DNA from: Pelomonas sp. Root1444
GTDB lineage: Bacteria; Pseudomonadota; Gammaproteobacteria; Burkholderiales; Burkholderiaceae_C
Assembly (NCBI RefSeq): GCF_001426885.1
Contig: NZ_LMFP01000001.1
Span: forward strand, 312,834-376,833
DNA: 64,000 bases
Direction of reading: 5' to 3'
Part shown: positions 3,420-46,823 of the stretch, in pieces
Numbering within the stretch: position 1 is the stretch's first letter
How the letters are laid out: the number at the start of each line of letters is the position of its first letter
Notes under the pieces: model-generated
What the model saw: only the letters and a program-made list of their open reading frames with translations
Told to the model about the DNA's origin: nothing
Databases searched by the model: none
Program-made: the position numbers and the translations under genes

Positions 3420-4967
3420 CTATTTCACTGCATTGATCTGCTGGATCAGCGCGCGGTGGCTGGGCAGGTCCACCAGCGCGCGCTCGGCGAAGCGCTGGAT
3501 CTTGGCGAACAGCTTCTGCGCCTCGTCGCCCTGCGTGAAGTCGGCGCGGCCCGCGCCGAGGTCGGTCTGGACGCCCATGCCGTAGAGGATGTACTGGTAG
3601 TTGAAGAAGGCGAAGGTCTCGGTGTCCAGCACGAAGTCGAAGCGGCCGGGCGGGCGCAGCCGCCACTGCGCCAGCAGCTCGGCCAGCCGCGCGGGGATGG
3701 TGGCCGGGGCGGTGTTGTCGCGCCAGAAGGGCTCGGTGCGCTGGCTCAGGCAGTAGTGCAGCTTGAGGAAGCCCACGATGTTGTCGAAGCGGGCGGTCAT
3801 CAGCTCGTTGAAGCGCCGCGCCGGTGCCTCCATCGGGCCGCTGTGCGGCAGCATCTCGGCAATCATGCCGACGGCCGCCTCGATGAGGACCAGGCCGGTC
3901 GATTCCAGCGGCTCCAGGAAGCCGGCGGACAGCCCCACGGCGACGCAGTTCTTCAGCCATTGCTGCTCGCGGTAGCCGGGTGCGAAGGGGATGCTGCGCA
4001 TCGCCAGCGCCTCGTCGCGCCCGGCGCCGCAATAGGCGCGCAGGATCTCCGCGGCGCGGTCGTCGCTCAGGTGGCTGCTGGAATAGACGCAGCCGATGCC
4101 GCGCGCGCCGTTCAGGCCGATCTCCCACAGCCAGCCGGCCTCGTGCGCGGTGGCGATGGTGCAGCTCTCCATCGGTGTGTCGGGAGACTCGAACGGCAGC
4201 TTGCAGGCCAGCGCCCGGTCGGCGAAGAGCTGGCCGCGCACCGACTTGAAGGGGCTGGCCAGGGCGCCGCCGATCAGCTCGGCGCGAAAGCCGGTGCAGT
4301 CGATGTAGAGGTCGGCCTGGTGGCGTTCCTGGCGGCCCTGCTGCACGCTGTCCAGGTGCGCGATGGCGCCGGCGGTGTCGAGCGCGACATGGTTCACCGT
4401 GCCTTCGACATGGCGCACGCCCAGCTCGCGGGCGCGGTCGGCCAGCAGCCGGGCGAGCTTGATGGCGTCGAAGTGGTAGGCGTAGTTGAGCGGCGCGGCA
4501 TAGGGCGCCTCGCCGGCCCGCTTGGGCGCGCGCTGCGCCTGCGCGACGCGGTACTGCAGCGTCATCGCTTCGGCGAAGGGCGGCCGGGTGGCCTCGTCCT
4601 GCAGCAGCCAGTAGGGCACGAGGTTGATGCCGTCGGCGTAGAAGGGCGCCTCGAAGGGATGGAAGAACTGGTGCTGCCGGCCGGCGGTCGGCGCGTGCGC
4701 CCAGTCGACGAAGCGGATGCCCTGCTTCATCGTCGCCGAGGTCGCGCGGATGAACTGCGCCTCGTCGATGCCGAGGAACTGGAGCGTGCTCCGGATGGTC
4801 GGGAAGGTGCCTTCGCCGACACCGACACTGCTGATGTCCGGCGACTCCAGCACGGTGATCTCGAGATGGCTGCGCTCCGGCAGGCGCAACGCCTTGGCCA
4901 GGTAGGCAGCGGTGAGCCACCCGGCCGTGCCGCCACCGACGATGAGGATGCGTCGCTTGTTGGTCAT
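3420..4967 (-). CDS. Flavin-dependent tryptophan-halogenase family protein
   Basis: FAD-dependent halogenase family (PrnA/RebH type), which uses FADH2, O2 and halide to make hypohalous acid for C-H halogenation of indoles or aromatics. Start ATG 4967 (MTNKRRIL) puts the dinucleotide-binding GGGTAGW at residues 11-17. The family's catalytic lysine is present as K81 in TMKQGIRF, and the catalytic glutamate as E355 in EPLESTG. The usual GWxWxIP signature is relaxed to GWLWEIG (residues 278-284). At 515 aa it is full length. There is no flavin reductase, NRPS or PKS nearby, so the substrate is unknown. Many such proteins in Gammaproteobacteria and Burkholderiales pair with TonB receptors; the only one here is 49 kb away. 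The gene follows a stop-associated repeat. Confidence 0.88.
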   Translation of the reverse strand: MTNKRRILIVGGGTAGWLTAAYLAKALRLPERSHLEITVLESPDISSVGVGEGTFPTIRSTLQFLGIDEAQFIRATSATMKQGIRFVDWAHAPTAGRQHQFFHPFEAPFYADGINLVPYWLLQDEATRPPFAEAMTLQYRVAQAQRAPKRAGEAPYAAPLNYAYHFDAIKLARLLADRARELGVRHVEGTVNHVALDTAGAIAHLDSVQQGRQERHQADLYIDCTGFRAELIGGALASPFKSVRGQLFADRALACKLPFESPDTPMESCTIATAHEAGWLWEIGLNGARGIGCVYSSSHLSDDRAAEILRAYCGAGRDEALAMRSIPFAPGYREQQWLKNCVAVGLSAGFLEPLESTGLVLIEAAVGMIAEMLPHSGPMEAPARRFNELMTARFDNIVGFLKLHYCLSQRTEPFWRDNTAPATIPARLAELLAQWRLRPPGRFDFVLDTETFAFFNYQYILYGMGVQTDLGAGRADFTQGDEAQKLFAKIQRFAERALVDLPSHRALIQQINAVK

Positions 4968-4984
4968 CGGGGATTCAAAGATCC

Positions 4985-5106
4985 GGGCCGAGCGCCGGGC
5001 CGCTCCCAAGCGGGCCCGCCATGGCGATGTGCTCGCGGCTCCATGCCGCGGCCATTGCCGTCCCGCGGGGGGGCCGGCCAAGGTACGCGTTGGACGAGGG
5101 GCTTCA
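4985..5106 (-). repeat. Stop-codon-associated repeat, copy A
   Basis: Read on the minus strand it begins TGAAGCCCCTCGTCCAACGC, six bases beyond the first base of the vapC TAG, then GGACGGCAATGGCC, the hairpin GCCGCGGCAT / GAGCCGCGAGC, CACATCGCC, and a tail GCTTGGGAGCGGCCCGGCGC shared with copy D at 25668. It fills the gap between vapC and the halogenase gene. Confidence 0.7.
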
Positions 5107-5109
5107 TTT

Positions 5110-5607
5110 CTATGCGCGTACGTAGAGGTTCTTCAGCCACTGCTGGCCGGTGCCGGTGCCGTGGCTCCAGTCCTCGTCCTCGTCGGACGGTTGGGCGACA
5201 TAGCCGGAGGGGTTGAGCAGCTTGACGCGGCCGACGCGGAAGGCCGAGACGCGGTGCGTCACGAAGGTCAGGCTGTGCTCCAGCGCCGTGGCGGCCAGCA
5301 GGCCGTCGCGCGTGTTGGCGTAGGGCAGCTGGGCGCGGCGGCGCACGACGGCGGCGTCCACCGGCAGCACGCGCCCCTCGAAGGCGGGCATCACGCGCTG
5401 GTCGATCCAGTCCCGCACGGCCAGGCCGGCGGCGCGGTCCTTGCGGCCCAGGCGGGCGGCGGCGTTCTCGATCTCCAGCAGGTTCAGCGCCGAGATGAAG
5501 AGCTTCTGCCGTGCAATGCCGGCCGCCCACGCGGCCAGGCCCGGGGCGGACTGCCCTGCCTTGGCCTTGCGCAGTTCGAGCACGATGCCGGTGTCCAGCA
5601 GGTACAT
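5110..5607 (-). CDS. vapC: PIN-domain toxin, VapC family
   Basis: PIN-fold ribonuclease, toxin half of a type II toxin-antitoxin pair. Acidic metal-binding residues of the family are visible: D5 in MYLLDTGIV, the glutamate in NLLEIENA, and the Asp of NTRDGLLAATA followed by the late FVTHRVSAF segment. At 165 aa it is slightly long for VapC because of an acidic C-terminal tail (about the last 27 residues, SDEDEDW and onward). It begins 5 bp after the antitoxin stop, so the pair is co-transcribed. Targets of VapC enzymes are typically tRNA or rRNA; the target here cannot be read from sequence. Confidence 0.85.
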   Translation of the reverse strand: MYLLDTGIVLELRKAKAGQSAPGLAAWAAGIARQKLFISALNLLEIENAAARLGRKDRAAGLAVRDWIDQRVMPAFEGRVLPVDAAVVRRRAQLPYANTRDGLLAATALEHSLTFVTHRVSAFRVGRVKLLNPSGYVAQPSDEDEDWSHGTGTGQQWLKNLYVRA

Positions 5608-24423: not shown

Positions 24424-25128
24424 ATGACCGACACACGTAAAGCGCTGGTGCTTTTTTCCGGCGGCCAGGACTCCACGACCTGCCTGGCCTGGGCGCTGGA
24501 CCGCTACGCCGAGGTCGAGACGCTGGCCTTCGACTATGGCCAGCGCCACCGCATCGAGCTGGACTGCCGCAACACCGTGCGCGCGCAGATCGCGCGCCAG
24601 TTCCCCCACTGGGCCGACAGGCTGGGCGCCGACCACCTGCTGGACCTGAGCCTGCTCGGCCAGATCAGCGACACGGCTCTGACCAGCGAACGCGAGATCG
24701 AGCTGCAGGCCAACGGCCTGCCCAACACCTTCGTGCCGGGCCGCAACCTGCTGTTCCTGACCTTCGCCGCGACGCTGGCCTACCGGCGCGGCGCGAGCGT
24801 GCTGGTGGGCGGCATGTGCGAGACCGATTTCTCCGGCTACCCGGACTGCCGCGACAACACGCTCAAGGCCTTGCAGGTCGCGCTCAGCCTGGGCCTGGAT
24901 GCGCCCATGACGCTGGAGACGCCGCTGATGTTCATCGACAAGGCGGCCACCTGGCGCCTGGCCGAGCAGCTGGGCGGCGAGGCGCTGGTGAAGCTCATCG
25001 TCGAGGAGACCCACACCTGCTACCTCGGCGAGCGCGGCGAGCTGCACGACTGGGGACATGGCTGCGGCCACTGCCCGGCCTGCGCGCTGCGGGCCAGGGG
25101 GTTCGCGCGCTACCAGGCCGCGGCATGA
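24424..25128 (+). CDS. queC: 7-cyano-7-deazaguanine synthase
   Basis: ATP-dependent conversion of 7-carboxy-7-deazaguanine and ammonia to preQ0, in queuosine tRNA modification. 234 aa. The PP-loop is [10 protein letters not shown] (about residues 11-20). [11 protein letters not shown] and the zinc-binding Cys cluster (THTCYLGER, then [13 protein letters not shown]) are complete. The stop overlaps the next start (ATGA at 25125-25128), so lemA is coupled to it. folE, which supplies the pathway's first intermediate, lies 700 bp downstream on the other strand. No preQ1 riboswitch is visible in the short leader. Confidence 0.96.
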
Positions 25129-25670
25129 CGACGTGGCAGTGGATCGGCGTCGCTGCGGCGGCGCTGCTGTTCTTCTGGGGCGTCGGCGCCTACAACCGGC
25201 TGATGTCGCTGCGCAATGCCATCGGCGAGGCCTTCGCGCAATTGGACGCGCACCTGAAGGCACGCTCCGAAGCCTGCGACAAGCTGCTCGCCGCGGTCGC
25301 GCCGCGGCTGCCCAGCGAGCAGGCGACCTTCGACGCGTTGGCCAGCGCCCAGGCGGAATCGCAGGCCGCGGCCCAAGCGTCGCGCGCCAAGCCCTGGGCA
25401 CCCGACCCGGTCGGCAGCCTGGCCGTCGCCAGCGCGCTGCATGCGGCGGCGCTGACCCGGCTGATGTCCCTGCTGGACCACCAGGCCGAGCTGCGCAGCG
25501 AGACGGAGATCGATGCGCTGGTCAGCGAGCTGAAGCTCATCGAACGGCAGCGCGCTTTCGCACGCCAGGTCTTCAACCAGGCCGTGAGCCAGTACAACGA
25601 GGCGCTGCAGCAATTCCCGACGCGGGTGCTGGCGAACCTGTACGGGTTCAGCGAGGCAAGGTCACTGTGA
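25125..25670 (+). CDS. LemA family protein
   Basis: 181 aa. One N-terminal transmembrane helix ([20 protein letters not shown]), then a long helical bundle with LemA features: [20 protein letters not shown], alternating Leu/Arg heptads, and the C-terminal [20 protein letters not shown] plus LYGFSEA. LemA proteins are membrane-anchored helical proteins of unknown mechanism, linked to envelope stress in some species. It is translationally coupled to queC by a 4-bp overlap. Its TGA is the first codon of repeat copy D. Confidence 0.85.
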
Positions 25671-25803
25671 GCCCCTCGCCCGCTGTCGCTCGCTGAACGC
25701 GGCGACACCAGTCGGTCCCCCGAGGGGACGGCGATGCTTGAGGCATTGAGCCTCAAGCACATCGCCCTGGCGGGCCGGCTTGGGAGCGGCCCGGCGCTCG
25801 GGC
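25668..25803 (+). repeat. Stop-codon-associated repeat, copy D
   Basis: It starts with the lemA TGA itself: TGAGCCCCTCGCCCGCTGTC, then CGCTGAACGCGG, GGTCCCCCGAGGGGACGGCG, a hairpin TGCTTGAGGC / GCCTCAAGCA, CACATCGCC, and the tail GCTTGGGAGCGGCCCGGCGC shared with copy A. This is the longest copy and the only one on the plus strand. Confidence 0.75.
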
Positions 25804-25827
25804 GAATACACGCGCTTTCGTCTGAGA

Positions 25828-32910: not shown

Positions 32911-33035
32911 CGCGGCCCGGCTGCGCGCCCCCGCAGGCGATGTGCTCGCGGCTTCATGCCGCGGGCATCGCCGTCCCCGCGGGGACCGGTCAGATGTGCC
33001 CCATTCAGCGAGGCGCGGCTGGACGAGGGGCTTCA
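32911..33035 (-). repeat. Stop-codon-associated repeat, copy B
   Basis: Minus-strand reading starts at the TGA of the neighbouring gene: TGAAGCCCCTCGTCCAGCCG, then CGCTGAATGGGG, GGTCCCCGCGGGGACGGCG, hairpin TGCCCGCGGC / GCCGCGAGCA, CACATCGCC. It is the cleanest copy of the central hairpin. Confidence 0.75.
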
Positions 33036-33548
33036 GGCGTGCGGCCGGCGCTGAAAGCGGTAGAGGGCCGGCAGCTTGGCGGCCAGGCAGTCCTGCGGCG
33101 CCCAGCGGCCGGCCTCGACGGCCTCGGCGGCCAGGCCCATGTCCTGGGTGTGCACCAGGCCGAAGCCTAGGTCGGCAAGCAGGTACAGATGGCCGGTCTC
33201 GTCCAGCCAGACCGACTCGACCCGCACATCGCGGCCGGTGTGGCTCTGCACTCGGCCGTCGGGCTGCAGGCGCCAGACCCAGGGTGTGCATTCCAGCTCC
33301 ACGTAGACGCGCTGCGGGCCGTTCTGGAAGAACCAGGCGCCGCGTTCATCGCTGTCATAGTTGCGGCCGATGAAGGACAGCAGCTTGTCGTGGTCGATGC
33401 GGCTGCCCTTCACCCGCGGGAAGGGGCCGGCCTGCTGGATGCGCTCGTCGCGCATGTACCAGTCGCCGCGCGCGTCCAGTGCCAGCCAGCCGTAGCAGTG
33501 GGGAACGTTGGGCCACTTCTTCAGCGCGGCCTGGACGATGTCATCCAT
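33033..33548 (-). CDS. Conserved DUF protein of unknown function (171 aa)
   Basis: Starts MDDIVQAALKKWPNVPHCYG and contains WLALDARGDWYMRDERIQ, WFFQNGPQRVYVELECTPWV and GHLYLLADLGFGLVHTQD. The family is conserved in Burkholderiales next to the YheT hydrolase; it is soluble, beta-rich and aromatic-rich, and I cannot name its function. It is the last gene of the ilvE-led minus-strand operon (12 bp after the hydrolase). Its TGA is the start of repeat copy B. Confidence 0.75.
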   Translation of the reverse strand: MDDIVQAALKKWPNVPHCYGWLALDARGDWYMRDERIQQAGPFPRVKGSRIDHDKLLSFIGRNYDSDERGAWFFQNGPQRVYVELECTPWVWRLQPDGRVQSHTGRDVRVESVWLDETGHLYLLADLGFGLVHTQDMGLAAEAVEAGRWAPQDCLAAKLPALYRFQRRPHA

Positions 33549-36905: not shown

Positions 36906-36941
36906 GGGCGCGCATCCTGCCACGACCGCCGGGCCGGTTTG

Positions 36942-37058
36942 GGGCGGCCCGTCTGGCGATGTGCGGGCGGCTCGAAGTCGCGAGCATCGCCGTCCCCGGG
37001 GACGGACCCAGCCAGACCGCCCGCGTTCAGCGAGGGCGCGCCTGGCTGAGGGGCCTCA
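36942..37058 (-). repeat. Stop-codon-associated repeat, copy C
   Basis: Minus-strand reading begins at the TGA of the PilZ gene: TGAGGCCCCTCAGCCAGGCG, then CGCTGAACGCGGGCGG, GTCCCCGGGGACGGCG, hairpin TGCTCGCGACTTCGAGCCGC, CACATCGCC. It lies between the PilZ and monooxygenase genes. Confidence 0.7.
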
Positions 37059-37487
37059 CTCCGGCACCTTCAACAGCACGCAGCGCACCCACTGGCCGGA
37101 TTCGAGCGCCGCCTGGTGGCCCGCCAGGAACTGCTCGGCCGTCGAATTGCGCGCCGTGAAGCACATGCCGTGCAGGATGCCCATGCGCGGCACGGGCCGC
37201 GACCATTTGCGCTCGACGACGCCGTTGAACCACGACACCTGCTCGTCGTCCGAATCCATGTCGGCGCGGCCTAGCAGCAGCACCACCTCGTAGCGCGCAT
37301 CGGTCAGCGGCTCGGTCGCGCTGGTCAGCACCTGCAGGCCGCCGTCACTCATGTTCAGCACCAGGCCCGCGGGGCCTTGGCTGAATTGCACCGGCTTGAA
37401 AACCCAGCCGGGCAGGGAGTCGGCGTCATGCTGGGCGGCGAGAAAGTCGGTGCGGACGTGCTGCCTCAGGTCGGCGGGGTCGGACAT
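37056..37487 (-). CDS. PilZ-like domain protein
   Basis: 143 aa. A candidate PilZ fold: a basic segment RQHVRTDFLAA near the N terminus, then LVLNMSDGGLQVLT, which fits the family D/N-x-S-x-x-G motif that binds cyclic di-GMP. The rest is beta-rich (YEVVLLLGRADM, WFNGVVERKW, GMCFTARN). The classical RxxxR is imperfect, so nucleotide binding is uncertain. Cyclic di-GMP could come from the diguanylate cyclase at 12472. Its TGA begins repeat copy C. Confidence 0.7.
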   Translation of the reverse strand: MSDPADLRQHVRTDFLAAQHDADSLPGWVFKPVQFSQGPAGLVLNMSDGGLQVLTSATEPLTDARYEVVLLLGRADMDSDDEQVSWFNGVVERKWSRPVPRMGILHGMCFTARNSTAEQFLAGHQAALESGQWVRCVLLKVPE

Positions 37488-44699: not shown

Positions 44700-45191
44700 A
44701 TGAGCGAGAGCGTCTTCGACTTCAAGGCCGTCTCCATCGACGGCGAGCCGGCGGACCTGGCCTCCCAGCGCGGCAAGGTGCTGCTCATCGTCAACACGGC
44801 CAGCGAATGCGGCTTCACGCCCCAGTTCAAGGGCCTGGAGCAGCTGTGGCAGGACTACGGCCCCAAGGGCCTGGTCATCATCGGCTTCCCGAGCAACGAG
44901 TTCGGCGGGCAGGACCCGGGCAGCAACGAGCAGATCGCGAGCTTCTGCGAACTGAACTACGGCGTCAGCTTCCCGATGATGGGCAAGGTCAAGGTCAACG
45001 GCGGCGACGCGCATCCGCTGTGGAAGTTCCTGAAAAGCGAGAAGCCCGGCTTCCTTGGCACCGAGGCCATCAAGTGGAACTTCACCAAGTTCCTGGTCGG
45101 CCGCGACGGCCAGGTCATCAAGCGCTATGCGCCCAACGACGCGCCGGAAAAACTGCGCGGCGACATCGAAGCCGCCTTGGCGGCTGGCTGA
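44700..45191 (+). CDS. Glutathione peroxidase family protein
   Basis: 163 aa thioredoxin-fold peroxidase. The peroxidatic Cys is in NTASECGFTPQFKGLEQLW (cysteine, not selenocysteine). The resolving region GFPSNEFGGQDPGSNEQIAS contains the conserved Gln, and KWNFTKFLVGRDG the conserved Trp and Asn. Non-seleno bacterial enzymes often use thioredoxin as reductant. It converges with halogenase-like gene 2, with a degenerate repeat (copy E) between. Confidence 0.92.
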   Translation: MSESVFDFKAVSIDGEPADLASQRGKVLLIVNTASECGFTPQFKGLEQLWQDYGPKGLVIIGFPSNEFGGQDPGSNEQIASFCELNYGVSFPMMGKVKVNGGDAHPLWKFLKSEKPGFLGTEAIKWNFTKFLVGRDGQVIKRYAPNDAPEKLRGDIEAALAAG

Positions 45192-45269
45192 CACGGCGGT
45201 CCGTGCCGTCCGCTCGGGGGCCCGACCAGCCGTCCCCGCGTTCAGCGGCACGACCGGGCGAGGGGCTCA
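45192..45269 (-). repeat. Stop-codon-associated repeat, copy E (degenerate)
   Basis: Minus-strand reading from the TGA of halogenase-like gene 2: TGAGCCCCTCGCCCGGTCGT, then CGCTGAACGCGGGGACGG, and CCCCCGAGCGGACGGC. The distal hairpin is missing because the convergent gpx gene begins. Confidence 0.55.
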
Positions 45270-46823
45270 ATGCGCGGCGTGTGAAGTGACCACGCCGTCC
45301 AGGCTCAGCAGGTAGTCGCGCATCGTCGGCGACTGCGCCGCGGCAATGCGGCGGATGCCCTGCACATGCGCCATGGCCTTGAGGCTGATCTCTGGCGAAA
45401 TGTGGTCCGACAGGCCGATGCCCCGGCTGGGCAGCCGCTGCAGGCCTGCCAGCAGATAAGACCAGTTGGCCACGCCGAACAGCGACAGCCGCCGGTCCAG
45501 GTCGGTCGGCGTCGGCACCTTGCTGTCCCACAGTGCCAGCAGCTCGGCCAGCCGCGGGGGCAGCGTTGCCTCCTCGGTGCAGGCGCGCCAGAACGGCGTG
45601 TCGCGCCGCTGTGACAGCGCGTAGTGGGCGACGATGAAGTCGCGCATCTCCTCGTAGAAATCGCCGAAGACGCGGTTCACGCGGCCGCGGCAGGCGTCGC
45701 TGTTGCCAGCCGGCGCCACATGGTCAACGAAGAGCTGCAGCATCCACTCGACGAGGTACAGGCCGGTCGACTCCAGCGGCTCGATGAAGCCGCCCGCGGC
45801 GCCCAGCGCCAGGCAGTTGGCCTCCCAGGCGCGCGCCGCGTGCCCGGCGCGCAGCCGCTGCAGGCGCGGCTCGGCCAGCGGCTTGTGGCCGGCGCCGAGC
45901 TCACGCAGCGTTGCCACCGCCTCGTCCTCGCTGCAAAAGCGCGAGGCATACACATAGCCGGTGCCACGCCGGCTCTGCAGGTCCATGTCCCAGGTCCAGC
46001 CGGCCGCCTGGGCCGTGGCCGTGGTGTGGCTGCGCAGCGCGCCGTGGGCCTGCCCGTGGGCCAGCGGCAGGCTGACGGTGCGGTCGCAGGGCAGCCAATC
46101 GGCAAACGACACCCAGGGGACGCCCAGCGCCTGCTGCAACAGCAGCGAGCGCGAGCCCGTGCAGTCGATGAAGAAGCTCGCCTCGCAGCGGCGGCCGTCG
46201 GCCAGCTCGACCGCCTCGATGCCGCCTGCGCCGCGCTGCACCCGCACCACCTCGCCCTGCACATGGCGCACGCCGCGCTCCAGCGCCTTTTGCTGCAGCA
46301 GCATGGCCAGTTTGACGGCGTCGAGCTGGTAGCCGTAGCTGACCGGCGCCTGGTACTCCGGCGAATCCACCAGCTTGGGCGACTGGTGGCCGTCGAACAG
46401 CGTCGTCTGCACCGCGCAGGCCTGCGCCATCGGTTCTCGCGTCAGGCCGCGCTGCAGCAGGTTGAGCCAGTGCGCGGTCGTCGCGAAGCCGTGGAACGGC
46501 GGCGGGATGTCGAAGGGATGGTCGAAAGAGTCGTCGGGCGCCGCGCCGCCGCGGCGCCAGCCGTTGAAGCGCAGGCCGTTGCTCAGCGTCGCGTCCGCGG
46601 CGGTGAACAGCGCGCGCTCTGGCAGGCCCAGCGCCTGCATGGTGCCGCGCAGCGTCGGCACGGTGGCGAGGTCGGCACCCAGGCTCACGGCCTGCGGCGG
46701 CTCGATCAGCGTGATGGGCAGCGGGCTCTGGCGCGCGGCGCCCAGCGTGCGCTGCAGGTAGCAGGCGGCCAGCCAGCCGGCGGTGCCGCCACCGACGATG
46801 ACGATGGATTGGATATCGGACAA
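45267..46823 (-). CDS. Halogenase-like flavoprotein lacking the catalytic lysine
   Basis: Tryptophan-halogenase-family flavoprotein, 518 aa from TTG 46823 (GGAG seven bases upstream; MSDIQSIVIVGGGTAGW). FAD motif GGGTAGW at 11-17; the C-terminal EPLESTG carries E351. The family lysine (K81 in the paralogue at 3420) is replaced by S81 within DATLSNGLRF, aligned without gaps. The GEGT-type flavin loop is also altered to LGADLATVPT. GWTWDMD stands in for GWxWxIP. It therefore probably does not halogenate. The ATG-less longer frame to 46865 is rejected. Confidence 0.82.
   Translation of the reverse strand: MSDIQSIVIVGGGTAGWLAACYLQRTLGAARQSPLPITLIEPPQAVSLGADLATVPTLRGTMQALGLPERALFTAADATLSNGLRFNGWRRGGAAPDDSFDHPFDIPPPFHGFATTAHWLNLLQRGLTREPMAQACAVQTTLFDGHQSPKLVDSPEYQAPVSYGYQLDAVKLAMLLQQKALERGVRHVQGEVVRVQRGAGGIEAVELADGRRCEASFFIDCTGSRSLLLQQALGVPWVSFADWLPCDRTVSLPLAHGQAHGALRSHTTATAQAAGWTWDMDLQSRRGTGYVYASRFCSEDEAVATLRELGAGHKPLAEPRLQRLRAGHAARAWEANCLALGAAGGFIEPLESTGLYLVEWMLQLFVDHVAPAGNSDACRGRVNRVFGDFYEEMRDFIVAHYALSQRRDTPFWRACTEEATLPPRLAELLALWDSKVPTPTDLDRRLSLFGVANWSYLLAGLQRLPSRGIGLSDHISPEISLKAMAHVQGIRRIAAAQSPTMRDYLLSLDGVVTSHAAH

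Follow-up and report, generated by a model that had tools for sequence, protein, structure and literature searches.

The repeat described here, a core of ~120-145 nt with four hairpins that reaches ~200 nt in some copies, forms a real dispersed family in the genome of Pelomonas sp. Root1444. It lies mostly at the 3' ends of genes and is oriented as the upstream gene, both genome-wide and in relatives. Its position and orientation, the four-hairpin fold, covariation in two of the hairpins, modular variants and presence or absence between species are all shown below. We consider it probable (roughly 60%) that the family is, taken jointly, a non-autonomous REP-like mobile repeat that is co-transcribed and forms a hairpin tail between cistrons.

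A dispersed repeat with four hairpins

A preliminary description of the window (the whole 64-kb stretch of DNA analysed) had listed five copies sharing one design. All five were found again at about the same positions, and a covariance model of 15 copies recovers each of them genome-wide. Copy A (4984..5106, minus strand), full length and of the type with a short hairpin 1, follows a PIN-domain gene (VapC-like, Pfam; 5110..5607, minus). Copy B (25668..25804, plus), full length with a long hairpin 1, follows a LemA gene (Pfam; 25125..25670, plus), and copy C (32932..33035, minus), also of the long type and with a diverged 3' part, follows a DUF2944 gene (Pfam; 33033..33548, minus). The diverged copy D (36930..37058, minus; 58 bits) lies behind a gene without Pfam match (37056..37487, minus). 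Copy E (45192..45270, minus), recognised by eye, comprises the 5' half only and overlaps a weak model match (45145-45270, E = 6.5e-4); the tryptophan halogenase gene before it (Pfam; 45267..46823, minus) ends with the TGA at 45267-45269. As had been proposed, the first TGA of copies B, C, D and E serves as the upstream gene's stop. In copy A it lies beyond the stop, three bases after the TAG at 5110-5112. The upstream genes are unrelated, with four differing Pfam results and a fifth gene without match; their vapC-, lemA-, DUF- and halogenase-like labels stood, whereas 'PilZ' for the gene before copy D is unsupported, that gene having no Pfam match. The window contains two tryptophan halogenase genes, one directly downstream of copy A (3420-4967) and one directly upstream of copy E (45267-46823).

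Across the 5.89-Mb Root1444 genome, the string TGARGCCCCTC occurs 28 times versus four times for its reversed control, which places the repeat beyond chance. The conserved core begins at GCCCCTCG; a preceding TGA often, not always, belongs to the repeat, and the 5' edge has the consensus T(G)(A/G)A followed by GCCCCTCG. This edge also carries a conserved GCCCCUCG that is mostly unpaired in predicted folds. Hairpin 1 is either long or short (CCAAGG-NNNN-CCTTGG when short), hairpin 2 has the consensus GTCCCC-CGA-GGGGAC, hairpin 3, of the GGCGATGC..GCACATCGCC type, contains a bulge of two bases, and hairpin 4 (GGGCCG..CGGCCC) is followed by CTCGGCCCG and an A-rich edge. Modules are variable and come and go among copies: a long variant has ~80 extra nucleotides between hairpins 1 and 2, and some copies bear a 3' extension that reaches the next start codon with the terminal sequence ATGGAYARCTGACATG. 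A pattern of this extension has three matches in the Root1444 genome, all adjoining an element (control, 0), and 25/32 matches of an extension profile lie downstream of an element, a partly circular figure since the profile was built from element neighbours. Within the spacers from element to next start of 52 sense-tandem copies, CTGA occurs 24 times compared with 5.2 in shuffles, an enrichment that stems in part from the 3' extension. An outer stem between the stop region and the next start, suspected from GTGAAAC/GTTTCA, was dropped, as folding gave no support for it.

Six copies fold better than shuffled sequences (z from -2.8 to -5.1), and three full-length units of ~208 nt do so modestly (z -2.4, -2.1 and -1.2). 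In a 15-copy alignment, scored against the fold of one among the 15 aligned sequences, two-sided changes were seen at 15/49 helix pairs (6.8 in shuffles, 3-6 in slid controls), paired cells amounted to 91.6% versus 87.2 in shuffles, and the covariation score was 0.133 versus 0.071; extra pair types in the same alignment showed no excess (24 versus 24.1 in shuffles). Covariation is confined to hairpins 1 and 3, with hairpins 2 and 4 devoid of two-sided changes. On the sense strand, A-C mismatches (188) outnumber G-U pairs (110) in hairpins 1-3, a count for which the copies from named relatives had been chosen with a pattern holding part of hairpin 3 constant. A G-U preference, as a sign of sense-RNA selection, is thus absent from these hairpins, and nothing in the present copies points to selection for pairing in the sense RNA. 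The A-C excess is the pattern expected of drifting DNA copies and counts against an RNA role under current selection.

A stable multi-hairpin RNA predicted directly behind coding regions, with the conserved and mostly unpaired GCCCCUCG at its 5' edge, might act by releasing small RNAs from 3' UTRs. Against this stand the dozens of dispersed copies, the unrelated genes that precede the window copies and the lack of an Rfam relative above threshold, and we regard the small-RNA reading as very improbable. Rfam family membership was rejected: searches of the window returned only two tRNAs above threshold, and apart from these, window and full-length copy L013 stayed below every gathering threshold, the best score for L013 against all families being 17.2 bits (gathering score 112). 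In a search mostly of literature outside subscription, none of the titles listed on Roseateles, Pelomonas, Burkholderiales REPs or Comamonadaceae/Leptothrix RAYT described the repeat, and the HEARO titles listed were of no use for the element. Rfam and literature titles thus agree with the earlier remark that there is no named family; in behaviour, the element resembles E. coli REP and Yersinia YPAL.

The covariance model yields at least 96 matches at E <= 0.1 in Root1444 (150 candidates scored), and copy counts are lower bounds throughout, with 150, 81 or 21 candidates scored per genome. Roseateles genomes carry the repeat dozens of times each. Within the genus, 20/20 members, Root1444 included, have matches at E <= 1e-4, and a first draw outside the genus gave a match in 0/20 genomes (four from the same family, 16 from the same order). 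A family-wide draw returned matches at E <= 0.001 in 40/150 genomes, 16 of them strong, i.e. with a best E < 1e-11, a line chosen after the list was seen. Matches to the internal pattern (at least 112 stretches) in named records come mainly from Pelomonas and Roseateles. One genome of another genus (G161; L238, L239, L240 and L244) has head-to-tail arrays of ~125-nt units. Besides, two element matches occur in a contig labelled as a Methylotenera MAG (L165), by mis-binning or transfer, and two short viral contigs (L258, L259) contain the internal pattern.

Placement behind stop codons

A genome scan had been set as the test of the suspected placement, and it revealed a preference for both stop codons and orientation. 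Among the matches listed for relatives, 75/92 scorable copies start between -15 and +3 from a co-directional stop, compared with 4.4% for a random noncoding position and strand. These copies were picked by a pattern of hairpins 2-3 and thus independently of the 5' edge; four of 131 matches (<40 bits) were dropped, and so were 35 of the remaining 127 copies (26 without recognisable 5' edge, nine at a DNA edge). The sampled copies are not all independent, some loci being mutually orthologous. In nearly all co-directional copies of the relatives, the stop-to-element distance is 0-12 nt. The 17 misses comprise five long forms scored from an inner anchor, nine copies with an opposed gene on the 5' side and three at other distances. 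Of 20 loci from other genera, 12 have the element directly behind a co-directional stop and six after further tandem units, with two showing neither arrangement.

In Root1444 itself, with genes called by a codon-usage script, 58 of the 78 strongest among at least 96 matches (copy E not being one of the 78) lie near a co-directional stop. Inspection by eye of the remaining 20 revealed seven variants, long or cut, that begin at a stop but had been matched from an inner position, four copies whose upstream frame ends at a TGA inside hairpin 1, and nine behind oppositely directed genes. The stops are TGA in 46, TAG in 10 and TAA in two of the 58 cases, and TGA in 57, TAG in 16 and TAA in two of the 75 copies from relatives. 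The claim that the repeat begins at a TGA is hence often right, yet it must be amended: the core starts at GCCCCTCG, and TAG and TAA stops in Root1444 are used as well. Behind the 58 near-stop copies, the next gene runs in the same direction in 44 and is convergent in 14. In 25 of the 44 sense-tandem copies the next start is 8-37 nt away.

Strong hairpins that follow the orientation of the upstream gene would also suit a family of transcription terminators, which would end upstream transcripts and have spread by replacing lost intrinsic terminators. At two loci (L061, L065), inspection by eye indeed shows a hairpin and T-run following the corresponding stop of the element-free ortholog. However, the last hairpin is not followed by a U-run (at the five positions past CCCG, T is found in 2, 2, 1, 7 and 8 of 49 copies), the next start within 37 nt in 25/44 Root1444 sense-tandem copies leaves little room for a promoter, and a simple scan found a terminator-like hairpin at only 1/82 element-free sites. 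The terminator role put forward in the preliminary description is accordingly disfavoured, at least as a plain intrinsic terminator, and we hold this explanation to be unlikely.

It is conceivable, albeit on balance doubtful, that insertion is random among intergenic sites and that selection keeps the copies behind stops, others being harmful to promoters or ribosome-binding sites. These genomes are gene-dense (of the 824580 bases in the sampled loci, 73901 are noncoding and lie outside elements), and for 9/92 copies from relatives the gene on the 5' side runs the opposite way, both in line with such a filter. On the other hand, selection of this kind does not readily account for a stop distance of 0-12 nt in nearly all co-directional copies, and it would need to act on orientation as well.

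Empty and occupied sites, and a candidate mobiliser

Presence or absence at orthologous sites, by which small mobile repeats are recognised, was evident for this family. At 100 orthologous stops, the stronger of the matches listed in nine relatives for 16 of the 78 Root1444 copies, 80 sites were empty, two had remnants (the internally deleted elements L346 and L359), 14 carried an element in sense and four in antisense. Such differences fit the earlier suggestion that the element inserts at, or is retained at, 3' ends of genes. Among 82 sites that are element-free by profile, the next gene overlaps or abuts in 16, starts within 20 nt in 14 more and is >60 nt away in 22. For example, the L056 ortholog in G006 is empty and reads GAAATGACTGAC, with GAAATGACACAA-element-...CAATGACTGAC at the filled site; likewise, the L040 orthologs in G002 and G012 read CTGAAAGAACGCCATG, with CCTGACCTGAA-element-...CACTGAAAGGAACACCGTG as their filled counterpart. 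The empty sites include overlapping ATGA pairs, and the filled counterpart retains the start codon of the next gene. Elements thus come to lie where one operon gene stops and the next starts, with both genes left intact. At L053, Root1444 and two occupied relatives have a gene that ends one or two codons before its counterpart in five of six element-free relatives. Two relatives (L292, L305; orthologs of the L056 site) have a different, repeat-like segment of ~70 nt, GCCSCGCACGGCCGCCCGAAGGGGCTCATTCCCGC..., at the same stop, which may represent another family of similar habit.

Where a site is occupied in two species, the orthologous element was the best match in 2/14 cases and the second best in 1/14; since shared-site elements are usually not the closest copies, repeated insertion or gene conversion is implied. 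A few orthologous copies are alike (L037/G008, 94%; L045/G006, 95%). These, together with the compensatory changes in hairpins 1 and 3, are what one would cite for a vertically inherited cis-regulatory RNA of the riboswitch or leader type that is kept by selection. This explanation is largely refuted, and we attach very little probability to it: the distribution is patchy (80/100 orthologous stops empty), the window copies follow unrelated genes, elements that share a site usually have their best match elsewhere, and there is no G-U excess. In a separate comparison, L152 of Pelomonas sp. Root1217 and L029 of Root1444 are 99.8% identical over 1.6 kb, and their elements differ almost solely by the inner ~80-nt module. 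Other rows compared are at ~85-93%, which suggests recent transfer of this segment.

Element flanks show no clear target duplication. In the flanks of 91 copies the longest shared string is as in shuffles; with longer flanks, 9/52 sense-tandem copies share 6-9 nt versus 5.2 expected, and a few loci have TGA or ATGA on both sides of the element. The lack of a clear duplication is compatible with IS200-like movement. An autonomous parent with an open reading frame between the 5' and 3' halves was not seen: where both halves occur on the same strand no more than 300 nt apart, they are always separated by <180 nt, and of 23 matches to the 5' half (>18 bits) without such a partner, three, at two places, lie 1.1 or 6.7 kb from a 3' half.

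The Root1444 genome does encode a REP-associated tyrosine transposase as defined by NCBIfam (RAYT1; 88.8 bits, cut-off 80). With homologs in 142/150 genomes of the family, RAYT1 is too universal and was rejected as the specific mobiliser. A second RAYT-like protein of ~280 aa (RAYT2) is found in 24/150 family genomes at E <= 1e-40, namely in 15/16 element-rich genomes versus 9/134 others (Fisher p = 1.2e-13, with no phylogeny correction). The element-rich exception is G118, whose element match has E = 3.1e-12; among the 134 other genomes, RAYT2 occurs in 4/24 with weak element matches and in 5/110 with none (p = 0.054). Against the same NCBIfam family, RAYT2 scores 54.7 and 77.4 bits, below the cut-off of 80. 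In the Root1444 protein (L394:1234-2079, minus), W replaces the catalytic Tyr and D the second His (HYD, not HUH), and homologs in several other element-rich genomes have an altered HUH motif, too. A search of ~1-2 kb to each side of the fetched RAYT-like genes revealed no element, and around RAYT2 genes neither 12-mer repeats nor shared hairpins gave anything consistent. With moderate confidence, we infer HUH-type mobilisation in trans, with RAYT2 as a plausible supplier.

A possible mechanism and comparison with known repeats

For the preferred reading, a REP-like mobile repeat serving as hairpin tail, we envisage that the element goes into, or persists chiefly in, the gap separating a stop codon from the following start, in sense to the upstream gene. 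It would spread at the DNA level by a REP/IS200-like (HUH tyrosine) transposase acting in trans, plausibly RAYT2, and the mRNA of the upstream gene would include it as a stable hairpin tail that begins 0-12 nt beyond the stop. Such a tail would slow terminating ribosomes and block 3' exonucleases, as REPs reportedly do in E. coli, and the outcome may be looser translational coupling, with the downstream gene damped or insulated. These effects on mRNA or translation are proposed by analogy.

A further, rather improbable idea is that insertion is coupled to translation termination, with the HUH transposase acting on single-stranded DNA behind stops and the 3' end of the element restarting translation. 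Such single-stranded DNA might arise, for example, from R-loops at the points where ribosomes come off the transcript, and the transposase would accept one strand. This could account for strict stop placement whatever the stop type, for the sense orientation and for insertion into overlapping operon genes, and the full-length unit, ending ATG-GAN-NNC-TGA-N-ATG ahead of the next start, might then serve as a cartridge for translational restart at the downstream gene.

Among known systems, enterobacterial REPs are also extragenic, palindromic, multicopy and partly located close behind stops, and RAYT-like genes are present in the genome. Within E. coli, 446/4,072 REPs are reported to lie within 15 nt of an upstream stop and to stall ribosomes, an earlier proposal having counted 260/496 REPs within 15 nt of a stop (PMC12306157). 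REPs are described as 20-40 bp long, and the ends of GTAG REPs as often providing stop codons (PMC3733652); their head is given as GT(A/G)G, and the rayt gene as flanked by two inverted REPs (PMC2817692). In contrast, our element has a core of 120-145 nt, four hairpins and variable modules, lacks the GT(A/G)G head and instead has T(G)(A/G)A and GCCCCTCG at its 5' edge. Its stop placement is stricter (75/92 among the matches listed), and, unlike in the classical REP/rayt arrangement, no RAYT-like gene was found flanked by element copies (~1-2 kb either side).

YPALs of Yersinia are found just behind stops and at terminators. By their published description, YPAL/RU-2 elements are ~168 bp long, intergenic and structured, have empty and filled sites, and produce target duplications of 3-26 bp (PMC2229807). 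The present repeat shares with them the intergenic location, the structure and the empty and filled orthologous sites, but it comes from another bacterial class and has no clear target duplication. ERIC/IRU elements of enterobacteria are comparable in size; the same source describes them as 127 bp long and co-transcribed, with an orientation-dependent effect on the stability of the upstream transcript, and as having terminal inverted repeats and TA ends (PMC2229807). ERIC co-transcription parallels the tail proposed here, whereas inspection of our element's edges revealed neither terminal inverted repeats nor TA ends. Like intrinsic terminators, finally, the repeat places hairpins behind stops, and it holds a terminator's place at two loci; unlike them, it is dispersed and often situated between closely spaced genes, and it has no U-tract, its 3' flank being A/C-rich with T rare.

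In summary, this is a kind of small mobile repeat that is unusual in its size, modularity and strict stop placement. To the few mobile repeats of bacteria that reside at stop codons it adds a large, modular and apparently unnamed family, with members in several genera within a single Burkholderiales family, and it raises the question of why such elements come to lie exactly at stops. The same stop with and without the element across species constitutes a natural experiment on mRNA stability, ribosome release and operon coupling.
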